64,000 nucleotides of DNA from Halorubrum sp. DM2 (GTDB lineage: Archaea > Halobacteriota > Halobacteria > Halobacteriales > Haloferacaceae), in NCBI RefSeq assembly GCF_901686465.1, contig NZ_LR594487.1:2043650-2107649 (forward strand), read 5' to 3'. The position numbers and the translations under genes are program-made. Shown piece after piece: positions 33,592 to 55,713 of the stretch (position 1 is its first letter; every line of letters starts with the position of its first letter). Below the pieces are notes generated by a model that did not search any database, had not been told where the DNA came from, and saw nothing but the letters and a program-made list of their open reading frames with translations.

Positions 33592-33960
33592 GCGGTGGCG
33601 CGCGCCTGCGAGCGGTCGCCACCGGCGACCGCGAGACAGCACGCGCGAGGGAGTCAGTCGCCGGAGCGAAGCGGAGGCGACTGACGAGGCTGGGGAGGCG
33701 TGAGGCTGTGGTGCCGTGCGGGGTGGGACTCGAAGGGGCAGCCGGGAGCCGGGCGCAGGCGACGCAAGCACCGCAACGAGGGAGCGGAAGCGACCGAGTG
33801 AGGAGCGCAGCAAGCGTGCGCCCGGCTCCCGGCTGGGGCTTCGGCGGTCTCGTTCGGAGTGTCGGCAGCGACTACGTCGTAGCGAGCGGCTGGGGCTTCG
33901 GCGGTCTCAGTCGTGACGAGATCAGCGGTGTATAGCCAAGCGGCTGGGGATTCGAGAGCG
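33592..33960 (+). repeat. Dispersed structured element, copy A (plus orientation)
   Basis: This is one of four related non-coding elements in the window. Shared blocks run in order: gcggtggcgcgcgcctccgag, cgcgagggagtc, ggagcgaagcggagg, cgaggctggggaggcgtgag, gactcgaaggggcag, gcaccg and gagcgcagc(g/a)agcg, ending in ggctggggcttcgg. Three hairpins are specific to this copy: 33612-33620/33624-33632 (gcggtcgcc/ggcgaccgc), 33654-33662/33676-33684 (tcagtcgcc/ggcgactga), and a perfect 17-bp stem 33741-33757/33817-33833 (gccgggagccgggcgca with its complement). The tail has three units starting ggctggggc/a at 33831, 33888 and 33942. A cctcttatctg TATA-like element lies ~27 nt upstream of the core. Confidence 0.85.
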
Positions 33961-42239: not shown

Positions 42240-42592
42240 TCGATCGCTCGGCTGTACGTTGTTGATCCCGTCACGACTGAGACCGCCGAAGCCCCGGTCA
42301 CTCGGCTGTACGCGACGACTCTCGTTACTACCGGGACCGCCGAAGCCCCAGTCGCGAGGACTCGATGCGCTCGCTGTGGTCCTCAGTCGCTCACTCCGCT
42401 CGCTCCTTTCGGTCCTTGCGTCGCGCGTCTTCGCCCTCGCGACTGCCCCTTCGAGTCCCGCCCCGCAACCGCACCGCACCTCACGCCTCCCCAACCTCGT
42501 CGCTGGCACCCTCCGCTTCGCTCCGGGAGCCAGCGACTCCCTCGCGCGACGCTCCTCGGCCGCGATACGGCCTCGGAGGCGCGCGCCACGGC
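42240..42592 (-). repeat. Dispersed structured element, copy C (minus orientation)
   Basis: This is the reverse-oriented copy of the element described at 33592. It keeps the invariant blocks, but its hairpin arms differ from the other copies and still pair. They are ggccg/cggcc at 42558-42562/42568-42572, tcgctggc/gccagcga at 42500-42507/42529-42536, and a 10-bp stem 42350-42359/42435-42444 (agtcgcgagg/cctcgcgact). The tail units are at 42340-42353 and 42286-42299, 54 nt apart; a degenerate third lies near 42240. The second tail unit and its spacer are about 80% identical to the matching part of copy A. Frames open across it are not genes. Confidence 0.83.
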
Positions 42593-50971: not shown

Positions 50972-51240
50972 GCGGTGGCGCGTGCCTCCGAGCGTGCCGC
51001 CGAAGGCGGCCGCGAGGAGCACCGCGCGAGGGAGTCGGTCGCCGGAGCGAAGTGGAGGCGACCGACGAGGCTGGGGAGGTGTGAGGTGCTGTGCGGTTGC
51101 GATCGGGTGGGACTCAAAGGGGCAGCTGTGAGGCGGGCGCAGGCAACGTAAGCACCGCAGGAACGAGCGAAGCGAGTGACGAGGAGCGCAGCGAGCGTGC
51201 GCCCGCCTCACGGCTGGGGCTTTGGAGGCCTTCGCCGAAT
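50972..51240 (+). repeat. Dispersed structured element, copy B (plus orientation)
   Basis: This is the third example of the element described at 33592. Its own hairpins are gccgcc-gaa-ggcggc (50996-51010), tcggtcgcc/ggcgaccga (51035-51043/51057-51065) and a 17-bp stem with one G-U pair (51125-51141/51198-51214; gctgtgaggcgggcgca). The inner loop of the third stem contains gagcgaagcgagtgacgagg. Only one tail unit (ggctggggctttgg, 51212-51225) is clear. A strong TATA-like tttataaag lies at 50957-50965 just before the core, and catttaaaaag lies ~40 nt upstream. It occupies most of the 555-nt gap between the CitE-like gene and the glyoxalase gene. Confidence 0.84.
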
Positions 51241-55382: not shown

Positions 55383-55713
55383 CGCCGAAGCCCCGGCTGT
55401 GGGGCACTACGTGGTCAGACTCGACACGAGTGATTCCGTAACCGAAACCACCGAAGCCCCAGCCGCGAGGAGGTCACACGCTCGCTGCGCGCCTCACTCA
55501 GTCGCTCGTTTCACTCGCTCCTTCGTTTCGGTGCTTACGTCGCCTGTGACCTCCTCGCGGCTGCCCCTTCGATTCCCACCCCGCACAGCACCGCAACCGC
55601 ACCTCACGCCTCCCCAACCTCGTCGGCGGTCCTCCGCTTCGCTTCGGGCCGCCGACTCCCTCGCGCGACGCTCCTCGCGCTTTTAAAAGGCGCTCGGAGG
55701 CGCGCGCCACCGC
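55383..55713 (-). repeat. Dispersed structured element, copy D (minus orientation)
   Basis: This is the fourth copy, reversed. Its third stem is a perfect 18-bp inverted repeat (55461-55478/55545-55562; agccgcgaggaggtcaca and its complement). The second stem is tcggcgg/ccgccga (55623-55629/55649-55655). The first hairpin has a gcgc/gcgc base around a T4A4 loop (55677-55693) and is the weakest of the set. Tail units ccgaagcccc on the plus strand lie at 55451-55464 and 55385-55398, 66 nt apart. The element fills most of the 626-nt gap between the small ORF and lctP. No coding potential is seen in it; the remaining ~180 nt before the lctP stop also hold no gene. Confidence 0.83.

Follow-up and report, generated by a model that had tools for sequence, protein, structure and literature searches.

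The window analysed here, a stretch of 64,000 nucleotides of Halorubrum DNA, carries four copies of a repeat whose family is real and class-wide: it fills ~1% of the Halorubrum genome (~140 copies of 260 bases), is present across an archaeal class, the Halobacteria, and is yet missing from Rfam. Its copies fold and covary, are dispersed, have been gained, lost and turned round site by site, and have exchanged whole stems. Our leading reading, held tentatively, is that of a haloarchaea-specific non-coding, non-autonomous interspersed repeat acting as a folded single strand (the + strand for copy A), more probably of DNA than of RNA; its mobility machinery and its function are matters that we infer.

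We applied nhmmer, with a profile built from 60 copies, to the whole 64,000-nt window and recovered the four copies where a first-pass annotation had placed them, with no fifth full copy. The nhmmer bounds were 33593-33850 (+) for copy A, 42590-42335 (-) for B, 50973-51231 (+) for C and 55712-55445 (-) for D, each copy beginning about one base before its bound, at GCGGTGG. The features are as follows:

33592..33850, + strand: copy A, full element, by nhmmer; orthologous site filled in most Halorubrum species (24/30 loci)
33592..33652, + strand: copy A, domain P1/H1 (GCGGTGGCGCG..GCGAGGGA), helices 7-14:47-54 and 21-26:36-41
33653..33685, + strand: copy A, hairpin H2 (GTCAGTCGCC-GGAGCGAAGCGGA-GGCGACTGAC) with a d(GCGAAGC)-type tip, helix 1
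33721..33844, + strand: copy A, core module GGGTGGGACTCGAAGGGGCAG-[H3]-CTGGGGCTTCGG, helices 3-7, common to other haloarchaeal families and plasmids
33890..33954, + strand: copy A, tail with two more CGGCTGGGG(C/A)TTCG, at 33890-33901 and 33944-33954
42335..42592, - strand: copy B, full element; P1 42538-42592, H2 42499-42537, core 42340-42463
42286-42297, - strand: copy B, tail unit further on
50972..51231, + strand: copy C, full element; P1 50972-51033, H2 51034-51066, core 51105-51225; P3 pair of AT type (TCAAAG/CTTTGG), tail absent
55445..55713, - strand: copy D, full element; P1 55657-55713, H2 55622-55656, core 55451-55581
55385-55396, - strand: copy D, tail unit further on

The element proper is non-coding and measures ~255-260 bases, from GCGGTGGCG through CTGGGGCTTYGGCGGT, and is followed by a tail in which a ~55-base unit carrying CGGCTGGGGCTTCGGCGG stands in tandem 0-5 times, often with TTTATAA. 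Of the longer extents first proposed, the initial ~255 bases do fold, while the stretch beyond them is this tail of tandem units, which lies outside the fold. Reading and aligning the four copies showed that the invariant blocks and the complementary, copy-specific arms described by the first-pass annotation are genuine, but also that its third-stem lengths had been misassigned: the short helix belongs to B (13 bp) and not to C, which is not 10 bp long. Counting the shared CAG/CTG, the outer H3 helix has 13 contiguous pairs in B; in A, C and D it has 19, followed by another 2.

To the claim that covariation points to selection on structure, many copies now lend their weight. A consensus fold of 46 pairs was evaluated on 58 diverse copies against 500 shuffles with five measures, and on all five none of the 500 shuffles reached the observed value. 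Standard pairs occupied 96.8% of paired cells (83.6% in shuffles), 30 of the 46 pairs had changed on both sides (20.3 in shuffles), and double-change cells numbered 342, where the shuffles averaged 94.3; as a control, sliding the partners by 1-3 columns left 29-44% paired. A tree-based test on 137 copies, which uses a null of our own, returned 10 significant column pairs, 8 of which coincide with base pairs of the fold (pairing of 85% or more), and the significant nested pairs lie in H2, P3, H3 and the H3 tip. One pair of P3 switches on both sides between A-T and G-C (76 AT, 57 GC, 3 GT and 1 AC among the 137 copies). Since double changes are partly cassette events, the independent events are fewer than the changed cells. 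The covariation did not vanish once many copies were aligned, and significant covariation of the consensus fold, which is what a structured RNA is expected to display, is present.

The conserved core consists of GGGYGGGACTNAAAGGGGC, a ~100-nt hairpin and GGGGCTTTC; it is to this core, there in the form GGGYGGGACTGAAAGGGGC, hairpin, GGGGCTTTC, that comparison with other families narrows the element. Its 5' boundary is sharp, many loci having unrelated sequence upstream of GGGYGGG. Within the core, two GGG tracts face each other between a short helix, P3 (TCRAAG/CTTYGG), and the long H3 arm, and GGGYGGG lies immediately 5' of these tracts. The four G tracts are kept in 135, 123, 134 and 135 of 137 Halorubrum copies, and also in other families, where the search pattern used for the core comparison demanded them and the covariance-model matches did not; in one plasmid group the 5' tract is reduced to GGNGG. 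The arrangement of these tracts makes a quadruplex-duplex hybrid possible, and haloarchaeal cells hold molar KCl. Among the short motifs, GTGGGACTGAAAG presumably resembles the ends of CRISPR repeats.

At its tip H3 becomes a ladder in which covarying 2-bp blocks (GC/GC, AC/GT, GT/AC, GG/CC, AG/CT) alternate with tandem G.A mismatches; 116 of 137 copies show this ladder with a paired outer block. The apical triloops of H3 are GNA in 80 of 104 cases and its tetraloops GNNA in 25 of 25, only 6 of the 25 being GNRA, and H2 is capped by GAA in 66 of 89 triloops, as GCGAAGC. By a published rule, DNA mini-hairpins are extraordinarily stable when a GNA or GNNA loop is closed by two G-C pairs (PMC4686876).

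One strand folds preferentially. The sense strand has a fold z of -5.7 to -5.8 and a folding energy of -151.4 kcal/mol versus -118.0 kcal/mol for its complement, and in H3, P1 and H1, helices picked by Watson-Crick pairs only, it holds 87 G-T against 26 A-C cells. This excess indicates that one strand folds, without separating RNA from DNA. H2 alone has no such bias (8 G-T, 23 A-C), probably through alignment error. G-T pairs are rare overall, with 48 among 3,622 pairs in H2 and H3; given this rarity and the DNA-type loops, reading the element as single-stranded DNA is no worse than reading it as RNA. Preferential folding of one strand and DNA-favoured loops, as expected of single-stranded DNA, are both present and are not proof of DNA.

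A structured non-coding RNA is the most serious competitor, possible but less probable than the reading given at the outset. Under it, all copies or a subset would be transcribed and the RNA fold selected, a locus on plasmids described below would encode a larger, ~600-nt RNA working with an OB-fold protein, and the chromosomal copies would be its dispersed derivatives. The strong covariation, the conservation of single-stranded purine blocks and the G-T excess over A-C in H3, P1 and H1, as expected where G-U is tolerated on one strand, all speak for it, and metatranscriptomes hold conserved haloarchaeal sRNAs from intergenic regions that have been assigned no function (PMC7002113), to which the element might correspond. 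Against this, G-T pairs are scarce for an RNA, and the loops obey the DNA mini-hairpin rule, GNRA being rare. The first-pass annotation had itself offered RNA or folded single-stranded DNA in a dispersed element, and its structural inference is supported.

If the strand acts as DNA, as we tentatively favour, a single-stranded form would be exposed in replication or recombination, and the functional unit would be the core hairpin, with H3 capped by a GNA/GNNA mini-hairpin above the G.A ladder.

Four copies in the window greatly understate the case. In the single-contig genome of 3.45 Mb, blastn detected 40 strong copies, and a covariance model built on the last 200 positions at the 3' end gave at least 145 matches, mostly high-scoring, among 150 candidates scored; a few matches overlap or are fragments, and we count ~140 copies. 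The element occurs in 39 of 39 Halorubrum genomes sampled and, by blastn at E 1e-6, in 98 of 292 genomes and 33 of 77 genera of the class Halobacteria. The covariance model found ~100 matches each in G163 and G274, which are genomes of another family; of 16 chosen genomes, 13 had 5 to 83 matches. In a phylum-wide sample all 39 genomes that it matched belong to the class Halobacteria, and none of ~240 other genomes of the phylum did. Copy A had three partial matches in 72,556 plasmid records, and Halorubrum appears to carry the element almost exclusively on its chromosome; phages, searched with copy A, and viral contigs gave no match. One exact 20-base motif match carries a bacterial-MAG label (Pyrinomonadaceae MAG record JACDCK010000024.1, 5797-5816; L067) and may be mis-binned haloarchaeal DNA or chance. 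Rfam 15 had no match in the window and nothing above gathering over the element in five chromosomal loci, which weighs against the RNA alternative and bears out the earlier statement that no named family was recognised; we found none either.

Placement is intergenic and favours convergent genes, unlike the random placement that the first-pass annotation had named, joined to absent transcripts, as a possible objection. According to a simple codon-based gene caller, on which all these context counts rest, no copy lies inside a predicted gene, and of 187 classifiable copies 84 lie between convergent genes, 45 are antisense and 32 sense to co-directional genes, and 26 lie between divergent genes. 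Such mixed orientation relative to neighbouring genes is a further point against an RNA, and so is the lack of a promoter at a fitting distance. The motif TTATAAA does occur upstream, at a fixed distance: in 154 copies, 54 of the 67 occurrences that lie within 60 bases begin between -20 and -11. It recurs 20-30 bases downstream, in the tails. As the element's own promoter it was rejected on spacing, since it mostly starts ~15 bases before the element and would direct a start inside P1; its placement may instead reflect a target preference. Downstream T runs are rare (5 of 156 copies). In another Halorubrum genome, ~55 bases separate one copy (L032:1870-2181, - strand) from the gene for the archaeal RNase P RNA.

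To compare orthologous sites, we retrieved the genes that flank them in 39 species and scanned these loci for the element. Of the 30 loci obtained for site A, 24 hold a whole or partial copy, which has one orientation in the nearer species and is mostly inverted in more distant ones. Sites B, C and D were filled sporadically, in a minority of species, with truncated remnants. These patterns bear on the proposal of a host-serving cis element, that is, a boundary, terminator or nucleoid-organising site kept for its local effect, like some roles proposed for REP/BIME. The intergenic position, the 84 copies between convergent genes, the filling of site A in most species, though in both orientations, and the few plasmid and absent phage relatives of copy A would suit such an element; the minority occupancy and decayed remnants at B-D, the 26 copies between divergent genes and the T runs in just 5 of 156 copies would not, and we regard it as improbable.

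The copies have also been rewritten by one another. Identity among site-A orthologues across species is 80.5%, compared with 80.9% for non-orthologues and 84.1% for copies within the genome. L190 and L186 have nearly the same boundaries and downstream flank, but H1, H2, H3 and the tip have all been replaced between them, with both arms of each; in L149, and probably in L182 too, the interior of H3 is inverted. Orthologue divergence, whole-stem swaps and H3 inversion form the pattern expected from copy-to-copy recombination, including conversion of whole elements or hairpins, and we read from these comparisons that such recombination, with gain and loss, shapes the family. No near-identical copies were found among the genome copies compared, the best pair sharing just 92.8%, so recent jumping is not demonstrated. 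Since the family supplies ~140 natural versions of the same fold in each genome, structure, strand and inter-copy recombination become testable in cultivable organisms.

The same events raise the question of whether complementarity could come from hairpin-templated mutation (quasi-palindrome correction) and gene conversion alone, without structural selection. Arms are often complementary over 19 bp, and hairpins that switch as cassettes and an invertible H3 interior are DNA-level events at inverted repeats; arm correction, however, would not make invariant unpaired blocks, GGG tracts, G.A mismatches or GNA/GNNA tips, and the same core is kept across families, which leaves this explanation very unlikely. 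On the folded-strand reading, structure would be needed for copies to be recognised and then to spread or be converted, and conversion between copies would keep the conserved blocks uniform as the stems drift as matched pairs.

What moves the element does not appear to be a familiar transposase. A Y1/RAYT transposase was rejected as general mobiliser: PF01797 is absent from G016, which has many copies, and from G163 and G274 with ~100 matches each, and present in G157, G048 and G087, where no copies were found. No match to a transposon end or MITE, an outcome that the first-pass annotation had kept in view, was found, and these copy-rich genomes lack Y1 transposases. An ordinary MITE or IS200/IS605-type derivative with a known transposase as mover could draw on the high copy number, the intergenic position and the forms found elsewhere: the Halorubrum form has a single core, while several other families have two cores back to back, inverted, with ~20-25 bp between, and in family f10 inverted cores enclose a centre whose parts resemble P1 and H2. 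Yet PF01797 presence does not track copies, and at the empty sites B and D no target-site duplication or clean empty site was read, the intergenic flanks being too divergent between species; we consider a derivative of this kind highly improbable. In the family of G163 and G274 (L304, L309, L319), the bracketing cores differ consistently in their P3 helix, TGGAAG/CTTCCA in one and TCGAAAG/CTTTCG in the other.

A core from another family matches 40 haloarchaeal plasmid records. In 14 of 18 plasmid loci inspected (the exceptions being H4, H8, H13 and H28), the core and a ~290-aa gene are divergent, with the core ~410-620 bp upstream of the gene. The annotation of this gene is DNA-binding protein or replication factor A, and the C-terminal 75-80 residues of its product match OB-fold/RPA models. 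This RPA-like OB-fold gene is present in 199 plasmid records, pNRC100 included. The ~600 nt from its start codon to the core are non-coding, conserved and rich in inverted repeats, as seen in L360-L363, L365-L368 and L370-L381 (for example L360:2632-4105), and six more loci picked by the OB-fold gene alone have the same stretch with a variant core at its end, which scores weakly or not at all with the covariance model. Direct homology between the plasmid locus and the Halorubrum element is restricted to the core (model positions ~130-260). Neither the cassette exchange of stems, nor the class-wide span, nor this core shared with a plasmid OB-fold locus was visible to the first-pass annotation.

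The RNA alternative could also draw on this conserved stretch of 600 non-coding nucleotides and on its divergent position relative to the OB-fold gene. Nothing above the Rfam gathering threshold was found in it at three loci tested, however, and no TATA-like promoter was seen by eye. A G-T excess at this locus was dropped as evidence for RNA because one-strand RNAalifold favours G-T, and an unbiased count gives no overall bias (41 G-T, 45 A-C). As an anti-phage system the OB-fold protein had no PADLOC match. No full-length OB-fold relative was found beside a chromosomal copy, where two partial OB-domain matches occur (L003, L316).

The association with the OB-fold gene, known on plasmids only, is a lead to function: the RPA-like protein encoded beside the core would be a candidate binder of the folded strand. 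A more far-reaching proposal, speculative and rather doubtful, is that the chromosomal repeats and the locus on plasmids represent a single haloarchaeal system, so far undescribed, in two states, in which a ~600-nt folded nucleic acid would work with a dedicated RPA-like OB-fold protein and its 3' hairpin-G-tract module would have spread to ~100 chromosomal copies that rewrite their stems by recombination, possibly via a KCl-stabilised quadruplex-duplex hybrid.

We found no description of the family in open-access papers on haloarchaeal repeats, REP/BIME, archaeal G4, OB-fold plasmids or giant RNAs. It resembles REP/BIME/REPIN (RAYT, TnpA_REP) in being intergenic, in exceeding 100 copies per genome, in its hairpins without a gene inside and, in other haloarchaeal families, in its inverted pairs with short spacers. 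It differs from them in a core of ~120 nt instead of 20-40, in a foot of GGGACTNAAAG instead of the GTAG type, in unrelated sequence, in stems that covary instead of being conserved in sequence and, as regards RAYT, in filling some genomes that have no Y1 enzyme. With GOLLD, ROOL and OLE, the large structured bacterial RNAs of mobile elements (PMC12286853), it shares a large conserved non-coding plasmid locus rich in inverted repeats, but it has no Rfam relation, is linked to an OB-fold gene, has a 3' core that is also a genome-wide repeat and is known here from DNA alone.

In Neisseria a pilE-type G-quadruplex starts gene conversion, and conserved G tracts with copies exchanging sequence blocks recall that system; here, however, the 5' tract is GGNGG in one plasmid group, no antigen gene is involved and the quadruplex is a possibility. 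HEARO/omega RNAs belong to IscB/TnpB and are likewise structured sequences tied to mobile DNA, but the copies described here stand without a linked IscB/TnpB gene. On the plasmids, TnpB genes lie near a few of the loci, inconsistently.
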